NCBI GenBank assembly: GCA_001799675.1 | Contig: MGTX01000002.1 | Coordinates: 127,878 to 191,877, forward strand | Direction of reading: 5' to 3' | Source of the DNA: Elusimicrobia bacterium GWA2_66_18 | GTDB lineage: Bacteria; Elusimicrobiota; Elusimicrobia; UBA1565; UBA9628 | DNA length: 64,000 bases | In this document: piece by piece, positions 3,454-41,203 of the stretch | Position numbering within the stretch: position 1 is the first letter of the stretch | Layout: the number at the start of each line of letters is the position of its first letter | Program-made: the position numbers and the translations under genes | Notes under the pieces: generated by a model | What the model was told of the DNA's origin: nothing | What the model saw: the letters and a program-made list of their open reading frames with translations, nothing else | Database searches by the model: none

Positions 3454-3502
3454 GGACCCCTCGCAATGATCTAGGACTTTAGACCTAGGTAACGAGGGGT
3501 CC
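3454..3502. repeat. Nested inverted repeat ahead of the giant exported gene
   Basis: GGACCCCTCG (3454-3463) is the exact reverse complement of CGAGGGGTCC (3493-3502). Inside the 29-base gap, CTAGG (3471-3475) pairs with CCTAG (3484-3488). Together they could fold into a two-tier hairpin. There is no T-run after it, so it is not a classic intrinsic terminator. It lies 44 bases after the stop of the upstream gene and 44 before the ATG at 3547, so it may act as a leader structure, an operator or a factor-dependent terminator. Confidence 0.55.
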
Positions 3503-3546
3503 AGGGCCCCTGACCGTATAGGCCCAAGAGGAATACTCTACTCGTG

Positions 3547-6500
3547 ATGAGACCCCGCCGCCTGGCAGCCCTCCTCGCCGCGGCCGCGCTCGCTTGCGCG
3601 GATCTTCCCGCGTCGGCGGATGAAGCTCGGACCGTCACCGCTCGGGGCGCCGTCGCGACCTCGGTCAATCTCGGCGCCTTCAGCGCCCCGGCCAAGAAGC
3701 TCAACGACCAGCTCTCCGAGCAAGAGAAGGACATCCTAGCGCACCTGACGGGGGCCAAGACCAAGTCCTTCGCGGAGTTGAAGGCGCGCCACTCGAATCT
3801 CAAGTCCCGGCTGGAGCAGGCGCCGGAGCTTCGCCTTGATGAGAAGGCGCTCCTGGGCGAGAGGCTGCGCCGGCACGAGATCCTCCTGGCCCGGGCCGAG
3901 GCCCTCGCCCGCGGGGGAGCCCGCCTCGACCCCCGCCTCGAGAAGGTCCTCAAGAACGCCGAGAACGCCTCGCCGCAGGGGGCCTTCGACGCCCTCGATC
4001 AGGTCACCAACCAACTGATGACGGCGGCGACCAAGCCCGCCGAAGCGGGCAAGGTCTTCGACAACCTGCGCGCTCGCTTGGGCGCGACGCCTCAGGACCG
4101 GCAAGCGCTGGACGCCGTTCGCTTGGACTTCGCCGCCAAAGACAAGGAGCCCATCGTTTTCACTCCTCCCGGAACCAAGGGCACGAACGCGGCCCGTCTG
4201 CACGGCGCGAATGTCGAGATTTCGGCGCCCGTGACGGCTCGGACCCTGAACACGCCGCCGGCCTCTCGTCCGCCCGTGAGCCTGGCGGCGCTCAACGCGG
4301 CCGCCTGCGAAGCCTGGCAACCCTTCCGTCTCGCCCTGCCCGACGGACAGGAGAAGGCGTTTCTAGACGCCCGAGGGCTGAGGCTCGAGGAACTGCGCCG
4401 GTTGGCCTACGGGGCCGAGCGGTCCCTGGGAGGCGACCCCGAGTCCTATCGCAGCTTCGACGACCTCGTCGCGCGCCTGCAGTCCTTCGAGCGGTCCCTG
4501 GCCGCCGCGCTGGGCTTGCCCGCGGACATCAAGGACTTCAGCGAACTGCGCCCCCGCCTGGAACGCGTGCGCATCGCGCAGCCCAACTTGGGGGCCTTCG
4601 TGGCCGCCCTCTGGCTGTATCGCGGCTTTCTGCGCGAGAGCCTGGTGGCCGGCGCCGTCCCCATCGGCGCCCGCTTCAAGCCGTGGGAGACCTTTCCGAA
4701 CGGCCAGGGAGGAACCGGAGCAGAGGTCATGGGGGCCCAGCGCGGCGGCGTGGGTTATGTGGGTCTGCGCTACGATGCCGCCGACGGGTCCTCCCGCTTC
4801 CAGGGATTTTCGCGCGACCGGCGCAAGGGCCTGATCCTTCTCGTCGACCAGGCCAAGACCCAGACGGTGACGCAGGTCGACTTCGACGGCGAGGGCAAAG
4901 TCCGCCAAGCCTTCACCGAGGTCTTCGCGCTCGGGGTCAGGGTCCGCTCCGAGACCCTGGACATGCTCCAGGGCGTGGGCGAGGTCCATCATTATGATTC
5001 CTGGGGCAAGGAAGTCCGCGTCGAGCGCAACGACGTCAAGAAGGGCGTGCGCGACATCTCGGACCTGGTCAACGGTCTGGACATGCGCATCGACCAGGAC
5101 CAGCGCGTCGAGATCCGCGGCGTGCCGGCCCCGGACGGGACTCCCCCCGCCGTCTCCCTGCGCATCGGCTCCATCGACGGCCAGGGCCGCTTCGAACTGG
5201 AGAAGATGGTCCTACAGGACGGCACGCAGGTCGTCGTCCGGTCCCAGCGCGTCACCCAACTCCTCGATCAGGCAGGCAAGACCTTGGGCTGGGAAGCCCG
5301 GATCGCCGACCTCCTCACGGACCCGGACGCCCGCGCGCGCCTGGCCGGCGCCGCGGCCCAAGACATCGTCGAGGCCCTCGGCTACGACGATCAACTGGGC
5401 TACTCGACGGTCCTGGCTGAATTCCTGCGCGACCATGCCAAGCTCGAGCCGGGGTCCGACGATGCGGGCGTGCGATTCTTCGTCAGCGAGGTCAAGAGCG
5501 GAGGCGTCGACCCCCTCAAGAACTTCCAGCTCATCTTCAGCTACAAGAACGGGACTAAGCGCGTCGTCAGCGGCGTCTTCAAGCGCGCCCCGACCTTCGA
5601 AGGGCGGGTCCAAGACGGGGGCAAGGGGCAGGTCTCCTTCGGCGTCATGGGCGAGATCCTGGTCGACAAGGACGGGCAGGCCCGACAGAACGAGCGCAAG
5701 ATCGAGCTCGAATATCTCTTCGACGGCAGCCGCGTGCGCTGGCTGACCCTGACCCAGGAAGCGGTCGCGGCCGAGTGGTACAAGCCCTGGCAGAACAGCC
5801 TCACCGTCTTCCATCAGTTCATGCAGCGCGAACGGCGCGCGCCCGGAGGCGCCTGGGCCGGGGCGACCAAGAAAGGCGCGGACGGCAGGCCCGTCGCCGA
5901 CCTATGGGAGTCCGCGGAGAAGCCCAAGGATGCCGAGGAATATTCCACCCTCGGCGCCTGGGCCAATGGCATCAACAGCACCCCCATTCTCGGCCACGGC
6001 CTGCGCTTCATCGGCGACGGCCTGGAGACCGTCTACTCCGGCGTCCACGCGGGAGCGGACTACGCCATCGCGGGTATGACCGGCTCAGACCAAATGCGGC
6101 TGGAGGCCGACGCGAGCCTCTCGCGCAACCCGCTGGTCAACCTCTTCGTGGCCGGCTTCCAGCCCGACCCGGAGGCGGATACGGAGGGCTACCGGAGATG
6201 GCGCGAGAAGGTCTCCGGCTTCCACACCGCGGGCATGACGCCGGGTGAGACCGAACTGCTGGACGCCCGCGCCCGCCGCGACCTCGCCAAGAACCTAGAG
6301 GAGCGGGGGACGACGCTCGACCGCGACCCCCTCGGCTTCTACGCGGCTCAGGATGCTCCCGTCAGCCAGGACGAGCGCTTCGAATCTTTTAAGCACTTCG
6401 GCGCGGACTCCTACGGCGAGCGCCTGGCCGAGAACGGACATCCGGTCCTGGGAGGTCTGACGCGCGGCGCCGAGACTTTCGCCAAGAGCGCGCCCGCCGG

Positions 6501-12906: not shown

Positions 12907-13578
12907 ATGTTGAAGAACTCCATCGTCTCGTTCGTCTCGGCCGCCTTTCTCGTGGCCGGACCTAGTCATCTGACCCCCGAAGCCGCCGCCCAGATCATCT
13001 CTCGAGGCCCTGTCACGGGCACGTCCGTGACTTCGGCGATCGGCACGGGTCTCAACAGCTCGGTCCCGTCCGCGCTCTCCCCCATTATGCCGGCGTCCTC
13101 GCAGGGCGCGCTAAGCGCGCCCACCCTGCTGCCCGTGAAGGGCTTGCCACTGGCCGTGATTCAATCCCAGGACTCCTCGGTTGGCGTGGCCGAAAAGGCC
13201 ACCGCCCTCGGCATCATGTTCGACGACTCTGTTCGCACCGGAGCCGAGACGTTCGGCCAGCCCGCTCAACCGGTCTATCAGCATTCTGAGCGAATTCCAC
13301 AGAAAGCGTCGTCGGGACGGTTCTGGACTATGGAGATGCTTGAGGGTTTTGTAAAAGAGCATGGCGAGACTCTTCGCAATGTTCCGGGAGTGCGGGATGT
13401 CGTTGTTGGACAGAATGAGGCGCTGGGCGGGAAGTTGGCGTCCCTGACCATCATTGTTGATTCATCCAAGGATATCGCCGAGGTCAAGAAGGCCATTGAA
13501 AAAGCGGTGCCGGATATTAAGCGAGTCTATGGAGTCTTGGGTGCGCCCAATCAAGCGGTCTATCAGCATTCTGCGTAA
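12907..13578 (+). CDS. Small exported protein with repeated YQHS segments, function unknown
   Basis: 223 residues. MLKNSIVSFVSAAFLVAGPS is a signal-peptide-like start, followed by a Ser/Ala/Pro/Thr-rich linker to about residue 90. A compact alpha/beta domain (residues ~135-215) then shows two strand-helix units, GVRDVVVGQNEALGG and LASLTIIVDSSKDIAEVKKA. The decapeptide-like segment PAQPVYQHS near residue 120 recurs as PNQAVYQHSA at the very C-terminus, encoded by an exact 18-base direct repeat. The stretch between the repeats looks lower in GC than the rest of the window and uses A/T-ending codons more often, a possible mark of insertion or transfer. ATG 12907 is chosen over the in-frame ATG 12871 because GGAGGTG lies at 12892-12898. 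I do not recognise the family. Confidence 0.75.
   Translation: MLKNSIVSFVSAAFLVAGPSHLTPEAAAQIISRGPVTGTSVTSAIGTGLNSSVPSALSPIMPASSQGALSAPTLLPVKGLPLAVIQSQDSSVGVAEKATALGIMFDDSVRTGAETFGQPAQPVYQHSERIPQKASSGRFWTMEMLEGFVKEHGETLRNVPGVRDVVVGQNEALGGKLASLTIIVDSSKDIAEVKKAIEKAVPDIKRVYGVLGAPNQAVYQHSA
13271..13288 (+). repeat. Direct repeat copy 1 (18 bases)
   Basis: CGGTCTATCAGCATTCTG is identical to 13556-13573 and codes for the VYQHS segment. Upstream bases are also similar (GCCCGCTCAAC here, GCCCAATCAAG in copy 2), extending the repeat imperfectly to about 30 bases. Confidence 0.9.
13556..13573 (+). repeat. Direct repeat copy 2 (18 bases)
   Basis: Identical to 13271-13288, offset by 285 bases (a multiple of three), so recombination between the copies would delete a 95-codon segment in frame. 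Confidence 0.9.
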
Positions 13579-13852: not shown

Positions 13853-15682
13853 ATGATCTCTTCCCGCCGCAAAGACGTTCGCAACATCGCCATCATCGCT
13901 CACGTCGACCATGGCAAGACCACTCTCGTTGACGCGCTCCTGAAGTACACCGGCGCCTTCAACGTGAAGGCCGACGCGGCGCAAGAGCAGGTCCTCGACA
14001 GCAACGACCTGGAGCGAGAGCGCGGCATCACCATCCTGGCTAAGAACACCTCGATTAAGTTCGAGGGTGCTGCGATCAACATCGTGGATACCCCCGGTCA
14101 CGCGGACTTCGGCAGCGAGGTCGAGCGCATCCTCAAGATGGTCGACGGCGCGCTCCTCGTCGTCGACGCGGTCGAGGGTCCCATGCCTCAGACACGCTTC
14201 GTCTTGCGCAAGGCTCTGGCTCTCGGCCTGCACCCCATCGTCGTCATCAACAAGATGGACCGGCCGCATATCCGCCCTCAGGAGGCGCTCAACAAGATCT
14301 TCGACCTCTTCATCGATCTGGGGGCCACCGACCCGCAGATGGACTTCGCTGTGGTCTATGCCGCGGGCAAAGCCGGCTGGTCGAGCCACGACGCGGCCGT
14401 GACGGGCGTCGACATGAAACCCCTCTGCGAGACCATCCTCAAATCCGTGCCGGGACCCATGGTGGACCCGGACAAGCCCCTGCAGATGTTGATCACGATG
14501 CTCGACTACAGCAGCTACATCGGCAAGATCGGAATCGGTCGCGTCCAAAACGGCGAGATCGTCAAAGGCGGGACCGTGGCGCTCATCAAGGCCGAGGACG
14601 GCAAGGTGATCCCCGGCAAGATCACCATGCTCCAGATGTACGACGGTCTCAAGCGCAAGGATGTGGAGGCGGTGAAGGCCGGCGACATCGTGGCCCTGGC
14701 GGGCCTGGAGTCGATCAACGTCGGCGACACGGTTTCCTCCGTTGATAACCCCGTGGCGCTCCCCCCTCTCGAGATCGACGAGCCGACGCTGTCCATGGAG
14801 TTCATGGTCAACAACAGCCCGTTCTCGGGCCGCGAGGGCAAGCTCGTGACATCGCGTCACATCCGAGAGCGCCTGCTCAAGGAGCAGCAGATCAACGTGG
14901 GCCTCAAGATCGAGCAGTTGAGCGGCGAGGGTCACTTCAAGGTGTCGGGCCGGGGCGAGTTGCATCTGTCGATCCTCATCGAGACGATGCGCCGCGAAGG
15001 TTTTGAACTTGCCGTCTCGCGCCCGCAGGTCATCTTCAGGGAAATCAACGGCAGGGTCTGTGAGCCGATGGAGAACCTCGTCGTGGATGTGCCCGCCGAC
15101 TATCAGGGAACGGTCATCGAGACCCTCGGCCGCCGCATTGGGCAGCTCCAGAACATGGCTCCCGAGGGCCGCTCGCGCGTGCGGCTGGAATACGTGATCT
15201 CCTCGCGCGGCCTGATGGGTTTCAAGTCCGAGCTGATGGCGATGACCAAGGGCACGGGCATGATGCACCATAGCTTTCACGGCTACGGCCCGAAGGGCTC
15301 CGAGCCGCCTCCCCGTCCCAACGGCGTGCTCATCGCCATGGGGCTAGGCTCGACGACCGGCTACGCCCTGTCGGGGCTGCAGGAGCGCTCAGACTTCTTT
15401 CTCGCGCCCGGCGTGGAGGTCTACGAAGGGATGATCGTCGGCACGAATTCGCGCGCCACCGACATGATCGTCAACCCCTGCAAGGCCAAGGCGCTGACCA
15501 ACATGCGCTCGAAGGCGACCGACGACGCGATCCAGCTGGAGCCGCCTCGGATCCTCAGCCTGGAGCAGGCCCTGGAGTTCATCGACGAGGACGAGTTGCT
15601 TGAGGTTACGCCCAAGAGCATCCGCCTGCGCAAGAAGGTCCTCAACGGCTCCCTGCGCAAGCGCTCGGAAGAGAAGGGCTAG
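13853..15682 (+). CDS. typA: Ribosome-associated translational GTPase TypA/BipA
   Basis: TypA/BipA binds the ribosome like EF-G and helps large-subunit assembly and growth under stress. 609 residues, normal for the family. GTPase motifs are intact: G1 [10 protein letters not shown]3 [10 protein letters not shown]4 NKMDRP. The EF-G-like domains II, III and V and the TypA-specific C-terminal region ([19 protein letters not shown]) follow. AAGGA at 13838-13842 precedes ATG 13853. A promoter and hairpin lie upstream. The stop TAG shares the tetramer CTAG (15679-15682) with the stop of the convergent barrel gene. Confidence 0.96.
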
Positions 15683-16845
15683 TAGATCCAACCCGGTACG
15701 CCCTGCGGGCGTTCGCGGGACGCCGGGCGGGGACGCGGGATGTCCTCCATGACGGGCTGGCGCTCATCGAGGCCCGAGAATTTCTCCCTTTCGGGGGCGT
15801 TCTCGATGAAAGGCCGACGCTGTCGAGCTCGGACCGAGGGCGGCATCCCGCCGAAGCGGTAAGTGATGGTGAATCGGTGCGCTGCCGAGAAGGAGTCCGC
15901 AAGGGCCCAGGCGTAATCAAGCAAAACGGATTCCTTCCAGCGCAGACCGAAGCCCATCGTCAGCCCCCCCTGGTCGCCCCGGCGGAACTGGTAGCCCAGG
16001 CGCAGGCCGTAGCTCTTGACCCATAAATACTCGAAGCCGGCGTTGGCGTGCCAGGTCTTCTCGTCTAGGAGGTAGTCCGCGTCTGCGGCGGCCACGATGT
16101 CGTGGAGCGAGGGCGCACCGCCCTGCCAGGCGAACCCCGCGCGGACGGCGGCGGGCAGAGGATCCATTTGCTCCACGTACTTGAGCTTGCCCCCGAGGTT
16201 GAGAACCGAGGAGCCGAAGCTCCAGCCCGTTTCCGGAGCGGAGACGAGATAGCCCACGTCGCCTGCAAAAGCGCTGGCGTGATAGCTTTCCACCAGGGTC
16301 GAGCGGATGAACTTGGCGCCGACGCCCAGGAAGTGGTCGATGGCGTAGGTCGACTCGCGCAGTGCGATGGGGGTCATCCCCGCGCGCTCGGCGTATGCGA
16401 GAGAGGCGACCATGTCGCTGCCCGCGGAGAGGTTCTGGGTCGACTGAAGCGAGCCGTCGGACTGGAGACGATTGACCTCGATGTTGCCGCCCTGCGACAG
16501 GAGGAGGCTGGCCCCGAAACTCGTGTAGCCGTTGCCCGAGATGCCCGTCAAAGGAGTGGGCCCGGCATAGGCGAGGTTCTGAAGTTGAGTCTCTCCCGCT
16601 CCGGCTATGTAGGTAAAGCCGGCTTCGTGCGCGTTGAGGCGCGCCAGGCCCGCGGGATTGTAGCTCAGAGCTGATGCGTCCGCGCTGACGGCCGTGTAGG
16701 CGGTCCCCATGCCCAGGGCCCTCGACCCCAGCGGGACCTGAAGGATGGGCGCCGCCGTGACGCCGGGGTTGTCGGCCGAGCGCACCGGTCCCCCGACGGC
16801 CAGAGCCGTCAGCGCGAGCATCCCGGCGCGAAGACGTCGTCTCAT
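15679..16845 (-). CDS. PorV/PorQ-family outer-membrane beta-barrel protein
   Basis: 388 residues with a signal peptide (MRRRLRAGMLALTALAVGG, then PVRSA|D). The start of the mature part, with GSRALGMGTAYTAVSADASA and LSYNPAGLA, is the typical N-terminus of the PorV/PorQ (UPF0164-like) family, related to FadL-type barrels. Alternating hydrophobic strands ending in aromatic residues run through to about residue 325 (HRFTITYRFGG). A charged Pro/Arg tail follows and may be periplasmic. In Bacteroidota, PorV carries type IX secretion cargo to the cell surface. Here the gene directly follows, with an ATGA overlap, a protease bearing a FlgD-Ig-type C-terminal domain, which suggests a dedicated pair (inference). 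It is the last gene of the tRNA-HEAT-M36-PorV unit. Confidence 0.85.
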   Translation of the reverse strand: MRRRLRAGMLALTALAVGGPVRSADNPGVTAAPILQVPLGSRALGMGTAYTAVSADASALSYNPAGLARLNAHEAGFTYIAGAGETQLQNLAYAGPTPLTGISGNGYTSFGASLLLSQGGNIEVNRLQSDGSLQSTQNLSAGSDMVASLAYAERAGMTPIALRESTYAIDHFLGVGAKFIRSTLVESYHASAFAGDVGYLVSAPETGWSFGSSVLNLGGKLKYVEQMDPLPAAVRAGFAWQGGAPSLHDIVAAADADYLLDEKTWHANAGFEYLWVKSYGLRLGYQFRRGDQGGLTMGFGLRWKESVLLDYAWALADSFSAAHRFTITYRFGGMPPSVRARQRRPFIENAPEREKFSGLDERQPVMEDIPRPRPASRERPQGVPGWIY

Positions 16846-19800
16846 TTGATAATGGCGATCTTCTGGGTCTTGTTGATGCCGGGACCCTCGGCGCGGATCA
16901 GGTAGATCCCGCTGGCGACCACGTTCCCGTTAAGGTTGCGGCCGTCCCAATCCACCGAGCCCTTTCCGGCTGGGACCACGTCGTCGAAGAGGGTGAGGAC
17001 GTGCGCCCCCGTGATCGTGTAGAGCTTGAGGGTCAAGCGTCCTGGGGCGTTCACGGCGTATTTGACGGTGGCCTTCTCCGCGCGCAGCGGGTTGAAGAGG
17101 TTGTTGTAGGCGGTCAACTCCGGCTGCGAGGACGTCAGGTTGATGGGGTTCGACAGGCCCAGGGAATGAGTGCTGCCGTCGACCGAGTACTGCGCGGGCG
17201 CGGAGTCGGACGCGTTGTAGCCGAAGACCTCCAGATACACGGTGCCCGCCGACGGGAATCGAGACGCGAATCCGGGGGCCAGCCGGACCTGGCCGTTGAT
17301 TCGGCCGGCGGAGTTGGACGTGCTGACGAGCAGCAGGAAGGAGCCCGCAGCCGACGTGGTGCTGGTGGCCGTGTTCTGCATCGCGGCAAAAGACTGGTTG
17401 CGCAGCTGGGCGTGATCGAAGCGCCAGTCCTGATTGCTGATGAAGGTCGATACATCGACCACGAAGGAGATGACGTCGCTGTCGAACGCCGCGCTGATGA
17501 TGCCGCCGGAGAGGGCGCCGCTCCGGGGGTAGACGACCTTGAGGGCGTAGGGCGTCGTCGAGTTGACGCCGCTGGCCGAACCGTTGAGCGAGTCGCCCCC
17601 GACCACCTGAAGATAGAGCAGGCCGCCGGCGGGGTTGTTGTAGCTGAGGCGTACGCTCGAAGCGGTGGTCGTGCAATCGCCGACGTCGCAGAAGCCGTCG
17701 ATGGTCCCGAAGCCGTTGTAGGGAGGGGCAGAAGCGGCCACCTGGCGCCGCGAGCGGTCGAAGAGTTTGAGCTGATACCCTTTATAAAAGGAGTCCGAGC
17801 GCGGCAGGTCCAGCGTGGCCTCGACGAGGCCGGGACCCGCGCCGAAGGACCAGAAGTCGGCGTCGGCCGTGGGGTAGATCGTGGCGGCGACGGAAGAGAG
17901 GGTGCTGATGTCCACGGCGCTGCTGAAGCCGTCGTTAGGCTCGTAGGCGTCGCCGCTGCGGGTCAGGCCGTGAGCGTTGAAGGCCGCGTTGATGAAGCCC
18001 TGGTTGGAGTTCGGCGTCCCGCAGGCCGTCACGCGGCCCAACTGGTCGACCCGAAGCAGGGCGTCCTGGAATTCTTGGAAGCTTTCCGGGAAGAAGAGCA
18101 GCGACTGGAAGACGAGGCCGTCCGCGCAGGAGCGGCCGTTGGCGTAGCCGAGGTTCTGGATGCGGTCGCGGCGGATGTCCCAGAGGGCCTGGGAGAAGAA
18201 GATGCTGTCGTCGTGGATTTCGCCCGCCCAGGTCCCCGCGCTGAGGACTTTCACCCCGTTGCGCACGCTGTCGAGCTCGCGCAAAACCGAGACCCCATCG
18301 CCGCAGAATCCCGACGAGCATACGTAGCTGCCGATAGACGATCGATCCAAGGAGCTGGCCGAGAAATAGTCTGCGAAACCCTCGGAAATGGCCCCAGCCT
18401 GGCCGAAGTTCTGGATGGGCCAGATTTTCTCGACGAGATAGTGAACGTACTCATGGTGCGAGACCGTCGCGTCGTCGGTGAAGAGGTCCGAGGGAGAGAG
18501 TTGGCTGACGTCGCCGAAGAAGAGGTTGTCGTAGTCCGGGTTGTAGAAGGCGTTGATCATGTTGGGCCCGACGTGGGCCATGGCCACGACGGGGCGGACG
18601 ACCGGCGCGGCGCTCGACTTATTGACGTCGCCGAAGAAATAATCGTGCATCAAATTGAGGTGGTAGAACAGGTTGATCTCGCTGCGCAGGGAATTGGAGG
18701 TGTCGGCGGGGACCCAGGTGTGGCTGGAGTTCGCGAGCTGGGTGTCGGCGTCCGTCAGGGTGAGGAAACTCGACACGGCCACGTCGTAGCCGTCTTCCTG
18801 CCCGGATTCGTTCGACATGAGCGCCAAGTGCATCTTCTTGCCGTGCACGGCGGCGGCGCGGAACGCGCCGCGGTTGCCGATGTAGTTGGCCACGGGTTCG
18901 TCGTATTGGTTGTAAAGGGTCATCTGGTCGTCGTCGGTGATGTCTCCTCCCTCGGTGGCGCTGCCCGAGAACCCGCCGACCCGGAAGCTCGAGAAGAAAG
19001 GCAGGAACTTGACGGCCGCGGGCGCGGCGACGGTCAAGTCGATGGTGGAGACCAGCACCGAGGAGTTTGGATAGGGGTGGGGCGAGGCGACGGGCGTGGC
19101 GACGCTGCTCCACGCGCCGCTGCCGTTGTCGAAGTGCGCGCTGGGCCCCGTGAACTGAGCGACGTTGACGAAGGGGCCTTGAAGAGACATCACGACCTTG
19201 CCCGTGGCGGTCCCGCAGAAGTAGCCCTGTCCGGAGGTGGCGTCTTCTCTCGTCTCGACTCGGGTCGCGTTGCTGCCGATGTAGACGTACTGATGGTTGA
19301 AATGGCGGCCGACCGGCCCCGGGGTGGTGCTGGGGTCGACGTCGTAGACCATGCCGTCCACCGTCCCGCTCGTGAGGCAGGCGAAGCGGAGGTTGTTGTA
19401 GCGGAAGAGGACCTGCCCCGTCATGGCGTCGAGGTAATAGCGCCACGCCGCCCCGGGAGACTGGACCTTCACCTTCCAGGCCAGATGAGCGCGTCCCGTC
19501 GTCTCAACCGGGAGGATCACGAGCTCCGGCGAGCCGAGAGTTTTGCCATGGGAGTCCAACTCGGCGGCGCGCGCGGCGGCTTCGGCCGCGAGCGCGGGGG
19601 TCGTGGGGATGTTCAGGTCCGGTTCATAAGTGGAATGAGCTCCGAGGACGGAGCCCTGCTCATCGAGGTGGACCTTCACGGAGGCGAACTCCACCGGGAT
19701 GCCGCGATAGTTCTGACGATAGAGGACATGGCGGTGGCCGTCTCCGGTCGTTTGACGCGAGTCCGTCAGGTTCGCGGTCTCCACGCCGAGCATGGCGGCG

Positions 19801-20108
19801 TGCGCGTTCAGGAAGGCGCGCGCCGCAGCCTCCGGGCGGCCGGGGCGGGGGATGGTCCTGCCGCCGACGACGGCGAAGGGGTTGCCGGTGCGCGCGTCAT
19901 AGCGGATCTTCCAATGCCCCCCCTCGGAGGCGTTAAAGGCGCTGAAGGCGCTCTGAGATCGGGCGGAGGGCGCGCGGCGATGGATCTTCTCCAGACGGTT
20001 TAGACCGAAGCGACGGGCTTCCGAGCGAGACTCCGCGGTCGGACGAATGGCGAGGGCCGGCAGCGAGGCGAGTGCCACGAGGGCGGCAGTCAGCGGCAAC
20101 CGCCTCAT
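16842..20108 (-). CDS. Secreted M36 (fungalysin-like) metalloprotease with FlgD-Ig sorting-type tail
   Basis: 1088 residues. A signal peptide (MRRLPLTAALVALASLPALA) is followed by a fungalysin/thermolysin propeptide region (GIPVEFASVKVHLDEQGSVLG; LAWKVKV; YYLDAMTGQVLFRYN). The catalytic domain has zinc motif H552-E-Y-V-H556 and a downstream EGFADYF that supplies the third ligand, as in gluzincins. The C-terminal third holds beta domains and ends in a FlgD-Ig-like module: YNNLFNPLRAE, LYTITGAHVLTLF, VDWDGRNLNGN, SGIYLIRAEG. This last module resembles type A sorting domains of type IX secretion cargo. Its role is probably extracellular protein degradation for nutrients. It overlaps the HEAT gene upstream and the PorV-like gene downstream by ATGA, so the three are translationally coupled. 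Confidence 0.9.
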   Translation of the reverse strand: MRRLPLTAALVALASLPALAIRPTAESRSEARRFGLNRLEKIHRRAPSARSQSAFSAFNASEGGHWKIRYDARTGNPFAVVGGRTIPRPGRPEAAARAFLNAHAAMLGVETANLTDSRQTTGDGHRHVLYRQNYRGIPVEFASVKVHLDEQGSVLGAHSTYEPDLNIPTTPALAAEAAARAAELDSHGKTLGSPELVILPVETTGRAHLAWKVKVQSPGAAWRYYLDAMTGQVLFRYNNLRFACLTSGTVDGMVYDVDPSTTPGPVGRHFNHQYVYIGSNATRVETREDATSGQGYFCGTATGKVVMSLQGPFVNVAQFTGPSAHFDNGSGAWSSVATPVASPHPYPNSSVLVSTIDLTVAAPAAVKFLPFFSSFRVGGFSGSATEGGDITDDDQMTLYNQYDEPVANYIGNRGAFRAAAVHGKKMHLALMSNESGQEDGYDVAVSSFLTLTDADTQLANSSHTWVPADTSNSLRSEINLFYHLNLMHDYFFGDVNKSSAAPVVRPVVAMAHVGPNMINAFYNPDYDNLFFGDVSQLSPSDLFTDDATVSHHEYVHYLVEKIWPIQNFGQAGAISEGFADYFSASSLDRSSIGSYVCSSGFCGDGVSVLRELDSVRNGVKVLSAGTWAGEIHDDSIFFSQALWDIRRDRIQNLGYANGRSCADGLVFQSLLFFPESFQEFQDALLRVDQLGRVTACGTPNSNQGFINAAFNAHGLTRSGDAYEPNDGFSSAVDISTLSSVAATIYPTADADFWSFGAGPGLVEATLDLPRSDSFYKGYQLKLFDRSRRQVAASAPPYNGFGTIDGFCDVGDCTTTASSVRLSYNNPAGGLLYLQVVGGDSLNGSASGVNSTTPYALKVVYPRSGALSGGIISAAFDSDVISFVVDVSTFISNQDWRFDHAQLRNQSFAAMQNTATSTTSAAGSFLLLVSTSNSAGRINGQVRLAPGFASRFPSAGTVYLEVFGYNASDSAPAQYSVDGSTHSLGLSNPINLTSSQPELTAYNNLFNPLRAEKATVKYAVNAPGRLTLKLYTITGAHVLTLFDDVVPAGKGSVDWDGRNLNGNVVASGIYLIRAEGPGINKTQKIAIIK

Positions 20109-21363: not shown

Positions 21364-21464
21364 CCACACTAATCTCTCATATGACCGTTGGGCCTAGGAC
21401 CAATGCCGCGTCGGGCTTCCCGAAAGTCCCTGGGCTTCCCGCCGCGAACGGGTACCCTATCCGT

Positions 21465-24400
21465 ATGCGCAAAGCGCTCGTATTCGTGCTGGCCGCCTGC
21501 TGTCTGTCGAGCGGCGTTGCTGCTCGCGCGGCCTTCATCGCCGAGATCGCCCGCGCTCCATCGGCCTCCGGGACTGGGGCCTTGGCGAAATGGACGCGCC
21601 CTCTTGGCGACTTTCTCAACGCAAGCGCGCCCTCTCTCGACTCGGTCCGTGAACTCTCAGGCGATCTGAGCCGGATCGACTTGGGCGATCCCGCAGCGCT
21701 TTCGCAACTCGAGCCGCTCCGGGCGCAATTGCGCGCCGCGGCCTCGAGCCTGCTCGCCTCTCCTGATCCGACCTCCCGCGAAACCGATCTCCATGCCGCT
21801 TCCCTCAAGCTCACTCTGCTCAACCAACCGTCCGTCCGCAGTTTGCTGACCGAGGAGCAGCAAGGGCGAATTCCGGTGGTTTTCTGGATCTACCAGAACC
21901 ATTTGATCGAGGATGTACGCCTGCACGATTGGGCTGCGTCGAAGCTCTCCGTCGCGGAGAAGATCGCGGGGATATCCAAAGCGCTTGACGACTCCCGCGT
22001 CCTGAATCCCGACGGCAAGCCCGCGGCTCTGCGGCCCGATGCGGGCGTCGAGGTCGAGATCCTCGACGGAGACATTTCGCAGGTCAAGGCCCACGGCCTG
22101 ATCTCCGCGGTCCAGCTCAGCGGCTTCTGCCGCGGAGGCATCAACGCGATGCTCGAGCGCGTCGGCGGCCCCGGCTTTGGCCGGCAGGTCTCGGCGGCCA
22201 CGCCGCTCAGGGACGGCCAAACCCTTCTCGTCCGCGGCGACTCCGAAAATAAGGGCCGTTTCGAGAACGTCGTGTTCGTCGCGGACGATATGCGTCGGCC
22301 TCTTCGTGAACTCGTGTCCCTGGGCCTCAAGGCCGCGGACGCGGCCGGATTGACGCAGGTCTCCCTTCCCGCCCTGCGCGCGGGCTGGAATTTCGGCTTC
22401 CTCGAGAAGACGTATGAGCAGGTCGTCTCCGAGACGGTCAAGGGTGTCAATTCCTTTCTGGCAGGCCGACCTGCGAATGTCAAGAAGATCTCCTTGGTGG
22501 TCCACAGCAACCCGAGGCTGCTCGATCTCATGCGCGCCGCCGCGGCTCCCGCCGATCTCGAGCCCCTCGCGTCAAGCCTGCGTCAGAATCCGATCAACGG
22601 CGCGAGCTACGCCTCCGAGGCCGACTTCCTTTTCGAGTTCGCGAAAGCCGCCCGCAAGAAGTTTGAATTCAGCGAAGGGCTCTCGCCGCAGGCGCAGCTC
22701 CTGCTCGGATTGGAGCGACAGGGCGATCAAGGCTCCTCGATATTCCTGAAGAACCTCGCTATCGTGTCGGATGACCTCTACCTCTGGAGCGACGCGAGGA
22801 ACGCTCCCGAGCGTCTGGCGCTTGCGGGGCTGCGGGCGCGCTTAGGCGCGGCCTCGGTCAAGGCGTCGGGCCCGACGAACTCCGAGCCGGTCGCGCCCAT
22901 GAGGGGCCTGTGGATTTCGCGCTTGGCGCCGGCGAGCTTCGGAAGCGCGTTGCGCGAGGCGCTGGAGTTCATCTCGGCGCGAGATCTCGCCGTGGCCGGG
23001 TTTCCGTCCGTCATCGAGCGGTGGGCGCGTTCTCCCGCGCTGAGGGCGCGGATCGGTCGGTTCGAGGAGGGGCTCGCCGCGCTCAACGACGGCTTCGATA
23101 CCCTGCCCGAGACCTCCGTCTGGCGGCTTGCCCTGGAGGTCAACGACGGCGACGTTCTCGATGCCGCCGAGATGCTCGGCGGGATCATCGGCCAGACCAA
23201 GCGGCCCCTGCGCTACGTCGAGCGCGAGTTCATCCCGCGATTTCCCGAGGCCCTAGGAGCCCAGGAGGACTTCGTCAAGGCGGCGCGCTGCTACTACATG
23301 CTCGGCCTTATCCATGAGAAGGGGCTGGCGCGCTTCGGGCGCTCCGGCCTGTATCCGCCCGGTTCGTCCGCGACGGGGCCGAAGTTTTGGCATTTCTATG
23401 GGGCCGCCATGGTGGCTTCAAGGCTGCACCGGCATCCCGGCTATGCCGGCAAAGCCGCGGGAATCTTCATCGGCGCGGCCTACGAGGCGGTCAGCCTCCG
23501 TCACAATCTCGCCTTGCTCCGTTCCAGGGGACCGTTCCGCGGCCTGGCGCTCGGCCTGGCCGACGCAGGACGCGACATCATCGCCCACGCCCAAGGCCAC
23601 GATTTCGGACGCGGCCTCTTTTTGGGCGCCGCGTCCGAGCGCGTCCCCATCGTTGTCGCGGGCGGGGCGCGGGCGCGGCTGCGCCGCGCGCGCGGGTATG
23701 CTCTCAATGCCTGGTGGCAATTGTGGTGGGAGGCCGGACCGCCTGCAGCGAAGCTTTGGAACGGCTATCGCGCGCGGCTCAAGGCGGCCGAGACCGCAGG
23801 TCTCAAACCGACCGTCATAGATCCCAAGGGGCTCTTCATCTCGCTGCGCCTGCTCGGCCTTTCGGTTCGCACGGCGGCCGTGGCCGAAGGAGTCGCCTCC
23901 GATGAGACCGTCCTCTCCGAGGCTCGCGCCCTTTTCGCGCGCCACATCGCGGCCGGAGACGAGGCCCGCGCGGCCTTCAACCGGTTCCTGGACCGGGCCA
24001 GGCTGTACAACCCGCTCCAGAGCCGCGCCAAGCTCAGGAGCCTGGCCGCCTATTGCCTGCGCGAGAGTTCCGTCCTGCCCTCCGAGGATCTGGCGGCCTA
24101 CTACGATGGGCTGGCGCGAGACGACGCGGCCTTGGCCGAAGCCGGCGCGAGGAGCGCTCAAGTCCTGGCCGATTTCAAGCAGACGGCGGATCGGATCATC
24201 CGCGAAGCGAACCGGTCCGTCCGCCCTGGGCGGCGCGTCCTGGGCTTCGTCGTGTCCGGAAGCTTCGCCAAGGGCGGCCCGCGGCCGGGCAGTGATCTGG
24301 ATCTTCAGCTCGTCACCGAGGATGGAGGCGCTCAGGACGGGAATCTTATCTCCGAGTTGGAGGGCGCCTGGGCCAAGCTCCAGCCGACGGTTCCGCTGGA

Positions 24401-24674
24401 GGTCTTCTCCAACGCCTACCTGCCTCCAGATCCCGGTCTCATCGCGACCCTTCATCCCGAGCCGTATCTGATCGTCTCGCCCTACCCCGAGGCCGTGGCC
24501 CTGCTCTCCCGCGAGGAGACCCCGGCGCGCGCGCCGCCCGAGGGCCGCGACGGCGCGCTGAGCCGGGTCTCTCGAGTCCTTCTCAGAGGCTGGCTGCGCG
24601 CGTTGCTCACGGCAGGAGAATCCTTTCTTTCGGATTCCAGGATCCCCCCAGAGTCGCGTTGGGGTGAAATATGA
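21465..24674 (+). CDS. Exported protein with degenerate macro domain and C-terminal nucleotidyltransferase domain
   Basis: 1069 residues starting MRKALVFVLAACCLSSGVAA, a signal peptide. Residues ~193-357 read like a macro (ADP-ribose-binding) domain. EILDGDISQVKAHGLISAV matches the family's GDIT...DAIVNAA element, CRGGINAMLERVGG the GGGVdxAI helix, VSLPALRAGWNFG the aFPAistGvyG loop, and ISLVVHSNPRL the last strand. The usual NAAN and STG residues are altered, so binding may differ. The middle (400-900) is helical and unassigned. Near the C-terminus, G932-S933...S943-D944-L-D946 is the GS-x10-DxD signature of polymerase-beta-type nucleotidyltransferases, with E979 (PLEVF) as the probable third carboxylate. 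I chose ATG 21465 because the in-frame upstream part runs through the antisense of the tRNA. The 3' end overlaps the convergent radical-SAM gene by 68 bases. Confidence 0.75.
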   Translation: MRKALVFVLAACCLSSGVAARAAFIAEIARAPSASGTGALAKWTRPLGDFLNASAPSLDSVRELSGDLSRIDLGDPAALSQLEPLRAQLRAAASSLLASPDPTSRETDLHAASLKLTLLNQPSVRSLLTEEQQGRIPVVFWIYQNHLIEDVRLHDWAASKLSVAEKIAGISKALDDSRVLNPDGKPAALRPDAGVEVEILDGDISQVKAHGLISAVQLSGFCRGGINAMLERVGGPGFGRQVSAATPLRDGQTLLVRGDSENKGRFENVVFVADDMRRPLRELVSLGLKAADAAGLTQVSLPALRAGWNFGFLEKTYEQVVSETVKGVNSFLAGRPANVKKISLVVHSNPRLLDLMRAAAAPADLEPLASSLRQNPINGASYASEADFLFEFAKAARKKFEFSEGLSPQAQLLLGLERQGDQGSSIFLKNLAIVSDDLYLWSDARNAPERLALAGLRARLGAASVKASGPTNSEPVAPMRGLWISRLAPASFGSALREALEFISARDLAVAGFPSVIERWARSPALRARIGRFEEGLAALNDGFDTLPETSVWRLALEVNDGDVLDAAEMLGGIIGQTKRPLRYVEREFIPRFPEALGAQEDFVKAARCYYMLGLIHEKGLARFGRSGLYPPGSSATGPKFWHFYGAAMVASRLHRHPGYAGKAAGIFIGAAYEAVSLRHNLALLRSRGPFRGLALGLADAGRDIIAHAQGHDFGRGLFLGAASERVPIVVAGGARARLRRARGYALNAWWQLWWEAGPPAAKLWNGYRARLKAAETAGLKPTVIDPKGLFISLRLLGLSVRTAAVAEGVASDETVLSEARALFARHIAAGDEARAAFNRFLDRARLYNPLQSRAKLRSLAAYCLRESSVLPSEDLAAYYDGLARDDAALAEAGARSAQVLADFKQTADRIIREANRSVRPGRRVLGFVVSGSFAKGGPRPGSDLDLQLVTEDGGAQDGNLISELEGAWAKLQPTVPLEVFSNAYLPPDPGLIATLHPEPYLIVSPYPEAVALLSREETPARAPPEGRDGALSRVSRVLLRGWLRALLTAGESFLSDSRIPPESRWGEI

Positions 24675-25905
24675 GATCGTCGATAAAAGAAGAGTCCAGA
24701 TCGATCTTGTTCATATCGATGTCCTTGAAGACCACGGTTGCCTCGCCCCGAGATGTTTTGTACGTCCACACCTCGTAATTGTAGTGCGACCCCGATGCAA
24801 CCTTGATACGGCGGAAGCGCTGGTCGCGCCGGATCGCGTCCAATATCGGCCCAATCGAGACGCGATGGGCCGAGGAATATTTGACGACGGATTTCGCGAC
24901 GAGGCCTCCCTCTTCCGGGAGCGTCGCCAACTGGCTGAAAGCGATATGCGCGACCCCCAGATCGATCGCCCAGTCGAGGAAGCGGGTCACCCCCTCAGCC
25001 GAATCGATCCCCCCCTTGATGAGGTTTGCATTCAAACGGATCGAGATGCGCCGGTCGATCCTGCCCAGAACTTCCTTCAGGTCTTTCGTCGTCGGCGCCG
25101 TTTTGGAACCCATGATCGATCGGTTCTCGGCGTCTAAATAGTGATGCCGGCTGATGTTGATATGCGCCAATGTCGAGTCGTTGATTTCACGGACCCAGTT
25201 CTTCAGATAACTCCCATTGGTCGTGATGACCGGATCCCGGACCTTGTATCTCTTGAGAAGATCGAGGATCATGGGAAGCTTCCTGTCGATGGTCGGCTCT
25301 CCTCCCAGGACCAGGGCCGTGTGATCGATGCCCTGTTTCCTGAGGAACTTCAGGCTAGCCTCGAAACGCCGAAGGTATTCCTTGCCGTTATTCTCCCGGT
25401 CGATCGGCACATCGGAGCGAGCGATGCAGAAGGCGCACCGCGCGTTGCATCGCGGCGATGGGTTGACGTACAAATTAACGTTCGGATGAACCCTATATTC
25501 CTTATCTCCGACCTTGAGGACCTGCGCCGGTGCGGCAAAAGCCCCCCCCAACACCGCGGAAGGTTCCTCCGTCGCCGTCCGGCCCGCGTAGAGAGCTTCG
25601 ATGCCCGCGGCCGCCGCGTTCGGGTCCGGGTCGACGGGGAAGGCGGCCATTCGCAGGGGGCTAAGCAGAGACGTAAACTCCGCCCGGACAAAAGAAGGCA
25701 GCGCAAGGCCAAGTCCGGCGTCGAGCGTCGAGGGCGCACGTGCCGTCGCCAGGCTCGCGCCGCCGGCCTGAGGCAGGCGGATATCCGACGGGCAAGCAAC
25801 GATGCCTTGGGCCGCGGCGGGATTCACTGCGCTCCGGAGGACCTGCGCCCTCGCCGCAGACGACGCGACCATGAGAGCAAGGAGCATGCTTGCCGATTTT
25901 CTCAT
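24607..25905 (-). CDS. Radical SAM protein with an N-terminal signal peptide
   Basis: 432 residues. The cluster motif is C153-x3-C157-x2-C160 (SPRCNARCAFCIARS), followed by the GGEPT motif (VLGGEPTIDRKL) and later strands typical of SPASM-like/MoaA-like radical SAM enzymes (VITTNGSYLKNWV; ISIRLNANLIKGG). Unusually, the protein begins MRKSASMLLALMVASSAARA|Q, a standard Sec signal peptide. About 110 residues of Ala/Pro/Ser-rich linker separate that from the catalytic domain. Radical SAM enzymes normally work in the reducing cytoplasm. The substrate is unknown and no precursor peptide is seen nearby. It converges with the macro/nucleotidyltransferase gene, which also encodes a signal peptide. 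Confidence 0.85.
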   Translation of the reverse strand: MRKSASMLLALMVASSAARAQVLRSAVNPAAAQGIVACPSDIRLPQAGGASLATARAPSTLDAGLGLALPSFVRAEFTSLLSPLRMAAFPVDPDPNAAAAGIEALYAGRTATEEPSAVLGGAFAAPAQVLKVGDKEYRVHPNVNLYVNPSPRCNARCAFCIARSDVPIDRENNGKEYLRRFEASLKFLRKQGIDHTALVLGGEPTIDRKLPMILDLLKRYKVRDPVITTNGSYLKNWVREINDSTLAHINISRHHYLDAENRSIMGSKTAPTTKDLKEVLGRIDRRISIRLNANLIKGGIDSAEGVTRFLDWAIDLGVAHIAFSQLATLPEEGGLVAKSVVKYSSAHRVSIGPILDAIRRDQRFRRIKVASGSHYNYEVWTYKTSRGEATVVFKDIDMNKIDLDSSFIDDLIFHPNATLGGSWNPKERILLP

Positions 25906-25975
25906 AGCATTTAAGGATAGCAGCCGCGGCCGCGCTGGACAGGGGCTAGGGACCCTCCCGCATTAGGTCTAATGG

Positions 25976-26025
25976 GCCGCCGGGGTGGGCCTGCCGGGAA
26001 CACATTGCCCGGCAGACGGCGGCTA
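25976..26025 (-). terminator. Long two-part hairpin after the SGNH gene
   Basis: GCCGCCG (25976-25982) pairs with CGGCGGC (26017-26023), and CTGCCGGG (25991-25998) with CCCGGCAG (26008-26015), loop nine bases. The structure starts at the stop codon of the minus-strand SGNH gene. No U-run follows. The palindrome CATTAG-GT-CTAATG lies just beyond it (25961-25974). Confidence 0.45.
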
Positions 26026-38544: not shown

Positions 38545-38844
38545 ATGCAACCTGCCGCCCCGAACCCCCTGATGAATCTGGCGCCCATCGTGGCCATCTT
38601 CGCCATCTTCTACTTCCTGCTCATCCGCCCCCAGCAGAAGCAGCAGAAGGAGCATGAGGCGATGCTCAAGAACCTCAAGGCCGGCGAAAAGATACTCACG
38701 ACCGGCGGCCTGTACGGCGTCATCACGGGCTTCAAGGGAGACGATCTCGAGGTCCAGTTCTCCCAGACCGTGAAGCTCACCGTTGCCCGCTCCGCCGTCG
38801 CCCGGCTCGTCTCCTGCGAGACATCCGCCGCGGTCGCCGCCTAA
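38545..38844 (+). CDS. yajC: Preprotein translocase accessory subunit YajC
   Basis: 99 residues with one transmembrane helix (LAPIVAIFAIFYFLLIRPQQ) followed by the family signature RPQQKQQKEHEAMLKNLKAG and GGLYGVITG. YajC associates with SecDF-SecYEG at the inner membrane. Normal length. TAAGGAGA precedes the ATG. It is followed by secD after 29 bases, the common tgt-yajC-secD-secF order, although hppA and a peroxiredoxin separate it from tgt here. Confidence 0.95.
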   Translation: MQPAAPNPLMNLAPIVAIFAIFYFLLIRPQQKQQKEHEAMLKNLKAGEKILTTGGLYGVITGFKGDDLEVQFSQTVKLTVARSAVARLVSCETSAAVAA

Positions 38845-38873
38845 ACCCGACCGGGAAGTCCAAGGATATCCCC

Positions 38874-40289
38874 ATGTCCAAGACCCAGACGAAATGGATA
38901 GGCCTGCTCGCCCTCGTCGTCGGCGCCCTCTTCATGCTCTACCCTTCCATCAACTGGTACTCCCTCGACGCCGTAGAGCGAGCTAAACTCGAGGCTCTGC
39001 GCGAGCGCCCGAAGTACTTGGTGAACCTGGGCCTCGACCTGAAGGGCGGCACCCACATGGTCATGGAGCTCGAGGTCGATAAGCTGGACGCCAAGACCCC
39101 CCTCAACGACGCCATGAGCCAGGCGATCGAGATCCTCCGCAACCGCATCGATCAGTTCGGCGTGGCCGAGCCCCTCATCGTGCGGCAGGGCGCGCGCTGG
39201 ATCGTCGTCCAGTTGCCCGGCGTGACCGACTCCGTGCACGCCAAGGAACTCGTCGGCAAGACCGCGATGCTCGAGTTCCGCATGGTTGACGACACGGAGA
39301 AGGGTCGAACGGAACTCAATAAGATCCTCGAGCTCGGCAATCCTTTCGACGCAAACGGCGTCGTGAGCCCCGCCGCTGCCAAGCTCGTCCCCGAGGGGCT
39401 GGTCCTCTTCAAGGGCAAGGACAGCGCCATGTACCTCCTGCAAAAGGAGTCGCCGCTGACCGGCGCGTCCCTGGAGACCGCCAAGGTGGAGACCGGCGGC
39501 GAATACGGGCTGCCCGTCGTGGCCTTCAAGTTCAAGCCGGAAGCCGCGGGCAAGTTCGCGGCGCTCACCGCCGCCAACGTCAACAAGCACATGGCCATCG
39601 TGCTCGACGGCATCGTCTACTCCGCGCCCGTCATCAAGGGCCGCATCTCCGGCGGCTCGGGCATCATCGAGGGCCAATTCACCCCCGAAGACGCCAAGTC
39701 GCTGGCCATCGTCCTGCGCGCGGGCGCCCTGCCCGCGCCCGTCAAGGTCATCGAGGAACGCGTCGTCGGCCCCACGGTCGGAGAGGACTCCATCAAGGAC
39801 GGCGTGCGCTCGGGCGCGATCGGGTTCATCCTGGTCGTCCTTTTCATCATCATCTACTACCGCGCCTCCGGCCTGGTCGCGGTCATCGCCCTGGGCCTGA
39901 ACCTGGTGCTGTTGGTCGCGATCATGGCCTATCTGCGCTCGACTTTGACCCTGCCGGGCATGGCCGGCATCATCTTGTCGCTCGCCATGGCCGTCGACGC
40001 GAACGTCCTGATCTTCGAGCGCATCCGCGAGGAGCTGAGGCTGGGCAAACCGGTCAAGACCGCGCTCTCCGTGGGCTATGATCGCGCCTTCTCGGCCATC
40101 CTGGACTCCCATATGACCTCGCTCATCTCCTCGGTGTTCCTGTTTCAGTTCGGCACGGGACCCATCAAGGGTTTTGCCGTTACCTTGACCATCGGCCTGA
40201 TCCTCTCGCTCTTCACGGCGATCGTGATCACGCGGATGATCTTCGACTACTACCTCGAAAACAACGAGGTCGAGGAGCTCTCGATCTAA
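38874..40289 (+). CDS. secD: Protein translocase subunit SecD
   Basis: SecD works with SecF to complete protein export, using the ion gradient. 471 residues: one N-terminal transmembrane helix, a large periplasmic part beginning with the D1 motif LGLDLKGGTHMVMEL, then five helices. D4-region sequence GPTVGEDSIKDGV and the D5/6 motif SLAMAVDANVLIFERIREE are present. It is shorter than the Escherichia coli protein but normal for most phyla. The stop overlaps the secF ATG by one base. Confidence 0.96.
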   Translation: MSKTQTKWIGLLALVVGALFMLYPSINWYSLDAVERAKLEALRERPKYLVNLGLDLKGGTHMVMELEVDKLDAKTPLNDAMSQAIEILRNRIDQFGVAEPLIVRQGARWIVVQLPGVTDSVHAKELVGKTAMLEFRMVDDTEKGRTELNKILELGNPFDANGVVSPAAAKLVPEGLVLFKGKDSAMYLLQKESPLTGASLETAKVETGGEYGLPVVAFKFKPEAAGKFAALTAANVNKHMAIVLDGIVYSAPVIKGRISGGSGIIEGQFTPEDAKSLAIVLRAGALPAPVKVIEERVVGPTVGEDSIKDGVRSGAIGFILVVLFIIIYYRASGLVAVIALGLNLVLLVAIMAYLRSTLTLPGMAGIILSLAMAVDANVLIFERIREELRLGKPVKTALSVGYDRAFSAILDSHMTSLISSVFLFQFGTGPIKGFAVTLTIGLILSLFTAIVITRMIFDYYLENNEVEELSI

Positions 40290-41203
40290 TGGAACTTTTC
40301 AAAAAACCCAACATCGACTTCATCGGACTGAGATGGATTCCCATAGGCGCGTCCGTCGTCGTCATGGTCCTGAGCGTGGCGACCATGACGATCAAGGGCT
40401 TCAACTACTCGATCGAGTTCACCGGGGGCTCCTTGGTGCAGGTGAGCTTCCCCGCCTCATCAAAGGTGGACGTCGACGGCGTGCGCAAGGCCCTCGAGGC
40501 GGCCGGCGTGAGCTCCGAGATCCAATCCGTCCAGGGCGAGCGCCCGACCTTCATCCTGCGAGAGAAAGGCACGGACACCGCCGCGGTGGACGCCTTCGTA
40601 ACCAAGATCCTGGACGCCCTGCGCAAATCGTATGCGGGCGTCGAGCCGAATCTGGACCGCAAGGACGTCATCGGCCCCGTCGTGGGAAAGGACCTGCGCC
40701 GCCGCACGGTCTGGGCCATCCTCTTGAGCCTCCTCGGCATCGTGGTCTACGTCGCCTACCGCTTCGAGAACCCTATCTGGGCCATCGCGGGCGTGCTGGC
40801 GCTCTTCCACGACGTGATCGGCGTCTCCGGCCTCTTCTCCTTTCTCGGTCTGCCCATGGACCTGCTCATCGTCACGGCGCTGCTGACCATCGCCGGATAC
40901 TCGATTAGCGACACCATCGTCATCTTCGACCGGATGAGAGAGAAGCTGCGCACGACCCGCGGCATCCCCCTGGCCGAACTCATCGACTCGTCGATCAACG
41001 AGACTTTGTCGCGCACCATCATTACGGTCTTGACCGTCCAGATCGTAAGCCTGGTCCTGCTCTTCGCGGGCGGGCCGGTTCTTCGGAACTTCGCGCTGGC
41101 CATGGTCGTCGGCAACCTCCTGGGGACCTACTCCTCCATCGCCGTGGCCGCGCCCCTCGTCTACGAGTACCAGACGCGCTTCGGAGGTCGCCGGCACAAG
41201 TGA
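40289..41203 (+). CDS. secF: Protein translocase subunit SecF
   Basis: 304 residues, six transmembrane helices, normal length. Motifs: GFNYSIEFTGGSLVQV, GPVVGKDLRR, and the conserved SISDTIVIFDRMRE segment (YSISDTIVIFDRMREKLR). It forms the SecDF complex with the product of the preceding gene. The stop overlaps the GTG of the following gene (GTGA). Confidence 0.96.
   Translation: MELFKKPNIDFIGLRWIPIGASVVVMVLSVATMTIKGFNYSIEFTGGSLVQVSFPASSKVDVDGVRKALEAAGVSSEIQSVQGERPTFILREKGTDTAAVDAFVTKILDALRKSYAGVEPNLDRKDVIGPVVGKDLRRRTVWAILLSLLGIVVYVAYRFENPIWAIAGVLALFHDVIGVSGLFSFLGLPMDLLIVTALLTIAGYSISDTIVIFDRMREKLRTTRGIPLAELIDSSINETLSRTIITVLTVQIVSLVLLFAGGPVLRNFALAMVVGNLLGTYSSIAVAAPLVYEYQTRFGGRRHK

Follow-up and report, generated by a model that had tools for sequence, protein, structure and literature searches.

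A radical SAM protein with a Sec-type leader and a disordered linker, and a candidate leader-linker-operator class in an order of Elusimicrobiota

Organization of the locus

The window, meaning the whole stretch of 64,000 nucleotides that was analysed, carries a minus-strand open reading frame (24607..25905, ATG start) encoding a protein of 432 amino acids, hereafter the target, in which a Sec-type leader and an A/P-rich linker precede a radical SAM domain. Its features, together with those of two other leader genes of the window, are listed in Table 1.

Table 1. Coordinates of the target features and of related elements in the window (residue numbers refer to the target)
Feature	Positions	Strand	Basis or remark
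Sec-type leader, residues 1-20 (MRKSASMLLALMVASSAARA)	25846..25905	-	Crude signal-peptide score 4.2, no twin arginine
A/P-rich linker, residues 21-125	25531..25845	-	72% A/P/G/S/T/V/L; pLDDT < 50 for 17-121
ALYAGR, residues 104-109, within the linker	25579..25596	-	Degenerate copy of the linker motif
Radical SAM domain, residues 126-432	24610..25530	-	Pfam, 19 homologous loci, AlphaFold2, Foldseek
CNARCAFC cluster motif, residues 153-160	25426..25449	-	Sequence
GGEPT, residues 201-205	25291..25305	-	Sequence
-10-like TATCCT, ending 8 nt 5' of the ATG	25914..25919	-	Sequence; no Shine-Dalgarno
Proximal palindromic operator-like site, 35 nt from the target ATG	25941..25956	.	PWM 10.4-10.9 by strand
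Distal palindromic operator-like site, 58 nt from the target ATG	25964..25979	.	PWM 8.5-9.1 by strand
Convergent neighbour: leader + macro + nucleotidyltransferase	21465..24674	+	68-bp overlap with the target at its 3' end
Palindromic operator-like site upstream of the neighbour, 61 nt from its ATG	21388..21403	.	PWM score 12.6
Another leader + linker protein	12907..13578	+	Its leader recurs on two further proteins of this genome

An earlier note on this DNA had described an intact CxxxCxxC motif and GGEPT behind a signal peptide and a low-complexity linker, and both halves of that description are borne out. Pfam Radical_SAM (PF04055) matches residues 147-280 with an E-value of 5.5e-13, its 49.9 bits exceeding the cut-off of 29.5; the cluster motif reads C153-x3-C157-x2-C160 and the second motif G201-G-E-P-T205. 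The protein has four cysteines only (38, 153, 157 and 160), three of them within the cluster motif. In the leader, a short positive N-terminus is followed by a hydrophobic stretch and by the cut site ARA|QV, which together form n-, h- and c-regions with AxA. Under our own crude rule, which uses hydropathy, charge and AxA, MRKSASMLLALMVASSAARA|Q is predicted to be cut after residue 20 (score 4.2), while a start at codon 7 scores 0.07 and starts at codons 86 and 118 give no leader. Tat export was considered and rejected, as MRKSASML... has no RR. The leader is predicted to be of the Sec type and to direct the chain to the Sec/inner-membrane pathway, and the target has no hydrophobic anchor besides it.

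The linker, of about 105 residues, is disordered in an AlphaFold2 model built on a 20-sequence alignment (pLDDT < 50, residues 17-121), with a low-confidence helix at residues 95-110; GC content by codon position is gene-like across leader and linker. The core is modelled as a confidently folded partial TIM-barrel, for which Foldseek ranks MoaA first, followed by SuiB, tetraether synthase and viperin. Among solved structures, MoaA (GTP 3',8-cyclase) matches best (phmmer 2.3e-7; Foldseek, E 6.9e-13), yet the target misses the NCBIfam equivalog cut-off for MoaA (51.8 vs 284.05 bits). MoaA carries a second C-terminal cluster, which the target, with its four cysteines, does not have. The viperin fold is matched with a TM-score of up to 0.71, again below the NCBIfam cut-off (36.4 vs 180 bits). 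Viperin, too, has its radical SAM core behind an N-terminal extension, one that binds a membrane (PMC9279394). Where viperin uses an amphipathic helix, the target carries a leader of the Sec type that includes a cut site.

Homologues of the radical SAM domain

At E <= 1e-20, the 294 genomes of the phylum yielded the target and one other match, from the same order, with no match in the 12 same-genus genomes listed among them. The gene adjoining this same-order homologue (L008:2-1519, minus strand) encodes an Isochorismatase domain and a Ternary complex associated domain 9. No viral relatives of the target were found, and genome contigs scanned with the target protein alone gave no match. An alignment-based scan of the named collection returned 53 loci, of which 19 were counted as family members (L062-L078, L080 and L083); the other 34 (L079, L081, L082 and L084-L114) were dropped as weak matches, mostly confined to the cysteine region or to a short segment.

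All 19 homologues lack a leader and have about 15-50 residues before the cysteine motif, with starts chosen by the analyst; they align with residues ~126-432 of the target at 28-36% identity. Because all 19 start just before the domain, the comparison indicates that leader and linker are an addition to a radical SAM enzyme. The earlier note had counted orthologues without the leader against its reading; such homologues do exist, but they are distant and stand in another operon context, so that they argue for an addition instead of an error.

The homologues form a leaderless family from Betaproteobacteria, Planctomycetota, Myxococcota, Nitrospinota and Obscuribacterales, for which we found no family name. 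It has the cysteine motif and a conserved C-terminal region in common with the target, and differs from it in having no leader or linker, in its neighbourhood, and in 59 of its 118 near-invariant residues. With near-invariant defined as the same in at least 18 of the 19 homologues, the target keeps 59/118 such positions, compared with 102/128 to 118/118 in homologues scored alike against the others. Among the changes, VEELRPASRG after the cluster motif has become IARSDVPIDR, and YYYYVEVW has become SHYNYEVW. This loss is what would be expected of a decayed domain carried within an exported protein of some other role. Against that reading, which we consider highly improbable, all three cluster cysteines, GGEP, N250, S252, R253 and R290 are kept in the alignment with homologues, and the core folds confidently in the AlphaFold2 model. 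Since many family residues are altered and those of the catalytic core retained, the substrate has probably changed relative to the leaderless family, and the core is predicted, with reasonable confidence, to be catalytically competent.

At the homologue loci L064 and L083, the family gene follows genes for a small radical SAM protein and an AMP-binding-like protein, with a VWA protein upstream (by Pfam); the ORF lists of further homologue loci, not all, are similar by eye. Nothing of this context is seen at the target: the small radical SAM and AMP-binding-like neighbours are absent around 24607-25905. The operon itself, of VWA, AMP-binding-like and two radical SAM proteins (L064:346-7056 and L083:266-6954), is conserved across several phyla.

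The 2.79-Mb source genome holds 62 Radical_SAM Pfam places, many of them clustered on three contigs (C16, C22 and C25). No convincing leader was read at the 61 places other than the target, two of these reads being incomplete at the stretch end; a borderline score of 3.0 was obtained at one (L266), from a GTG 14 residues before the radical SAM domain. A genome-wide family of leader-bearing radical SAM proteins was therefore discarded, the target being the only one among 62.

Start codon and promoter

The ATG at codon 1 has no Shine-Dalgarno sequence upstream, while GTG codon 118 has GGAGG, a 5-nt match, 11 nt upstream of it, and a start there would fit the N-terminus of the leaderless homologues. 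The real product could on these grounds be a short form translated from GTG118, in which the leader is not made; this is the alternative start inside the linker that the earlier note had raised. An equally good match, however, precedes 78 of the 947 internal in-frame start codons of the window, which is the chance rate. Other leader genes likewise lack a Shine-Dalgarno sequence and have -10-like boxes near the start codon, and the operator-like sites lie at class distances from the first ATG. A TANNNT box at the start position was found in 19/38 leader + linker genes, 46/161 other leader genes and 79/486 leaderless genes, in four summed lineage samples with gene starts picked by a simple rule.

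As the promoter box stands in the class position and the GGAGG at GTG118 is explicable by chance, we take the first ATG as probably the true start, served by a leaderless-type promoter, and regard a mis-start inside the linker as very unlikely. Read as a claim that the start is wrong, the earlier suggestion that the leader is no secretion signal loses ground for the same reasons, and also through the class layout of the operators and the conservation of the leader type in the order. It is very probable that both the start and the added leader are real.

A leader-linker class in the order

The search for the same leader and linker on other enzymes, which the earlier note had proposed, was carried out with a fixed rule: a leader score >= 3.3, followed by 70 residues of low charge, high in A/P/G/S/T/V/L/Q/N/I and with no TM helix. 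The target passes it. In 464 kb of the source genome the rule selects 10 of the 286 ORFs that are 200 aa or longer, and, in relatives, 9/234 (G209, one contig), 7/52 (G187) and 12/132 (G257), compared with 2/215 in the controls, which were Enhygromyxa and a planctomycete (400 kb). The pooled count of 38/704 differs from the controls by Fisher's test (p 0.0017; p 0.055 for the source genome alone), with the reservation that the rule also catches some unrelated proteins, such as a PorV-like one at 15679-16845.

The Pfam domains behind class-type leaders are varied. They include Endonuclease I (two), PLD, Met-zincin, an EEP nuclease with MFS, a subtilase with M50, M48 with MFS, M28, PD-(D/E)XK, PHP and MFS alone; several class proteins have no Pfam match. 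NTP- or cofactor-dependent domains are also present, namely ATP-grasp (E 4e-17), GGDEF, nucleotidyltransferase/macro and a LonB-like AAA domain, and M50 is found as well. For the convergent neighbour, the domain calls fall below the cut-offs (Pfam NTP_transf_2, E 0.0023; NCBIfam macro model at 197-346, E 9.6e-4). The same-order Endonuclease I, PLD and Met-zincin proteins share with the target the type of leader and of linker and, in several cases, the context of the start codon; unlike the target, these exo-enzymes need nothing from the cytoplasm for activity. The earlier proposal that the lineage exports radical SAM proteins was accordingly too narrow: the leader stands on only one of 62 radical SAM places, and leader plus linker on many kinds of enzyme.

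Among the 56 genomes of the order, 34 have a match to the ATP-grasp protein, a leaderless paralogue accounting for some of these matches; 25 have one to the macro/nucleotidyltransferase protein and 14 to the GGDEF protein. A leader was scored in 8/14 GGDEF loci, the remainder being incomplete, weak or without one, and in 5/8 macro-domain loci, with one more by eye. Active-site motifs are largely readable: GGEE[FI] in 13/14 GGDEF loci and GS..SDxD in 24/30 nucleotidyltransferase loci. Across the order there are fusions of ~1600 aa (L195-L204) that combine leader, linker, a 12-TM MFS part and an ATP-grasp amino-acid ligase. In five ATP-grasp-MFS orthologues, pN/pS is 0.15 (leader), 0.59 (linker), 0.25 (MFS part) and 0.95 (vicinity of the linker motif), values that indicate purifying selection on the class leader and no conservation of the linker motif in these orthologues.

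This motif, in other leader proteins, is a short aliphatic-F/Y-D/E-G sequence. The ALYAGR of the target resembles LDTLYAGGQGR in one ATP-grasp-MFS fusion (L198), and the target linker has no match to the expression [LIVMAF][FY][DE][GNSD][ASVR]. That expression was tuned after viewing the source genome and G209, where it occurs in 4/10 and 5/9 class ORFs; once fixed, it was found in 2/19 class ORFs vs 2/165 others (p 0.054), which is suggestive. The LFDGA pattern at the DNA level gave 15 matches vs 7 in the control, only 4 of them in leader proteins. A motif of the LFDGA type was rejected as a class definition, being found in some families and too variable. One leader protein with LFDGAQ in its linker (L054:289-2922) carries a carbohydrate-enzyme-like domain, for which Glyco_transf_5 is reached only at E 2e-4 and a resemblance to glucan phosphorylase is seen by eye.

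Palindromic operator-like sites

Expectation-maximisation on upstream regions converged on a 16-bp palindrome, tGGGcCCtaGGgCCCa, and gave TGGGCCCTtnGnCCCA when the palindrome constraint was removed. The training set consisted of 45 upstream regions, from 38 class genes and 7 leader genes added by hand. At a score of 8 and within 110 nt, the operator is found before 29/45 class genes, an inflated figure since these are the training set, and is absent from 16/45; mono-shuffled class regions reach the same score in 3.9% of cases. It also precedes 30/160 other leader genes, compared with 17/480 leaderless genes and 3/206 control genes, the neighbour at 21465 being counted twice, among the 7 added training genes and among the 160. 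A strict form of the operator occurs at 39 places in the source genome vs 17 for the reversed pattern; in 15 such loci that were opened, a leader ORF lies just downstream in 3.

The two sites before the target are 23 bp apart, centred about 43 and 66 nt 5' of the start codon. Pairs at 22-26 bp number 12 in the source genome, where site density predicts about 1; G187 has 6 (0.2 expected), G257 has 8 (0.5 expected), G209 has 3 (1 expected) and the controls have 0. Tandem 16-bp palindromes ~23-24 bp apart were seen before leader genes in the window (25941-25979 and 3472-3511) and at two other loci (L128:4122-4161 and L321 around 1453-1562). Judged by this arrangement, the tandem palindromes are probable binding sites of a putative regulator. 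A PAS-GGDEF protein without leader (L134:14662-15672) also has tandem palindromic sites upstream, which hints at a possible c-di-GMP link of the leader set.

With a promoter/operator layout common to leader genes, and no convincing leader on the 61 other radical SAM places, the leader of the target goes beyond chance, and the target likely belongs to the leader/operator class. It would be transcribed from a leaderless promoter under two tandem palindromic sites and, given the common layout, made together with the other leader genes as a putative regulon. The literature searched contained no report of a leader/linker/operator class, and the set appears undescribed there.

Topology and predicted location

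In nine ATP-grasp-MFS orthologues the 12-TM MFS part comes after a leader and a linker of ~200 residues, except that in one of them, L198, no leader was scored from the chosen start. Their K/R counts (n=9) average 4.3, 4.6, 11.0, 3.6 and 5.7 in the cytoplasmic-type loops, and 1.2, 0.8, 1.0, 0 and 0.3 in the outer loops. With the K/R-rich loops on the cytoplasmic side, these fusions are predicted to be canonically N-in/C-in, the part before TM1 lying inside. An EEP-MFS fusion and an MFS-only leader protein have the same charge sign, the latter also GPAVDRWGVRP in loop 2-3, which we take to be MFS motif A; a nucleotidyltransferase-MFS fusion is less clear, and in M48-MFS fusions too few helices were detected for a topology assignment. 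Most MFS fusions have no segment between leader and TM1 hydrophobic enough to turn the chain back, while some of their linkers have A/V-rich stretches scoring 1.5-1.7. Since a linker behind an ordinary Sec leader would end up outside, the leader of these fusions would be non-translocating or otherwise handled.

SAM, the cluster assembly machinery and reductant are cytoplasmic, and Sec passes unfolded chains. The proposed arrangement joins the radical SAM domain to an N-terminal module common in the order, a Sec-type leader with a disordered Ala/Pro-rich linker of ~105 residues. The leader would direct the chain to the Sec/inner-membrane pathway, and the catalytic domain would remain on the cytoplasmic face of the inner membrane, with leader and linker holding it in much the way that an N-terminal helix keeps viperin on the ER. 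Our tentative reading is thus of an inner-membrane-associated enzyme facing inward, a plausible placement. The earlier note had named such inward-facing tethering among its options; it would best fit the topology of the MFS fusions. The target itself contains no element that reports its topology.

Speaking against an inward-facing enzyme, the class includes exo-enzymes (Endonuclease I twice, phospholipase D, Met-zincin and an M28 peptidase), and ARA|QV looks like their cut sites. With the leader as sole hydrophobic anchor, a cut at ARA|Q would set the domain free on the outside. True Sec export, with the leader cleaved and the domain working or carried in the periplasm or outside, is accordingly a possibility of some weight, though on balance a less probable one: the target leader resembles those of the class exo-enzymes, the operator is enriched before leader genes generally (30/160 non-class vs 17/480 leaderless), and yajC and secD lie within the window. 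It conflicts with the cytoplasmic location of SAM, cluster assembly and reductant and with the passage of unfolded chains by Sec, with the MFS fusions, which put the post-linker part inside, and with the active-site motifs retained by the ATP, GTP and NTP enzymes of the class. The yajC-secD-secF genes occupy 38545-41203 (yajC and secD by Pfam, secF by eye). A 1598-aa leader protein at 3544-8340 ends in a single C-terminal TM helix followed by RRRRR and, like the exo-enzymes, points to export.

If the class proteins were effectors, exported and then passed into the cytoplasm of a neighbour or host, where NTPs and SAM are present, nucleases, phospholipase, proteases and NTP-/SAM-dependent enzymes would be united in one co-regulated set. 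We consider this unlikely: the analysis identified no delivery system, the producer's own membrane would retain the polytopic MFS fusions, and the literature searched offered no support.

Returning to the inward-facing reading, its generalization would be that the order has a dedicated module, made up of leader and disordered linker together with leaderless promoters and the tandem operator. Enzymes that depend on ATP, GTP, SAM or nucleotides would by this means be placed inward at the inner membrane, or delivered elsewhere, in spite of leaders with the look of cleavable Sec signals; we put this forward as a doubtful extension. By signal-peptide prediction, the target would be assigned to the exterior of the cell, as would many of the lineage's NTP-dependent enzymes. 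If such an assignment is right, they act in a place where neither SAM nor NTPs should be present; if it is not, having a Sec-type leader does not equal export in this lineage. An inward-placing module, if true, would put Sec-type leaders to a use that the predictors of today would label 'secreted'. With the common palindromic operator as a guide, the members of the set could be catalogued in each genome and the regulator of the set traced. CTP synthase identities weakly favour an assignment of the source genome to Elusimicrobiota, being 62% across the full length with one record of that phylum and 61-68% with fragments of two more, compared with 55-60% for records from five other groups. Elusimicrobiota belong to the phyla for which the fewest extracellular proteins are predicted (PMC11495043). 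Elsewhere in the window, a minus-strand pair at 15679-20108, a thermolysin-type protease that carries an FlgD Ig-like domain at its C-terminus and adjoins a PorV/UPF0164 protein, looks like secretion of the type IX kind.
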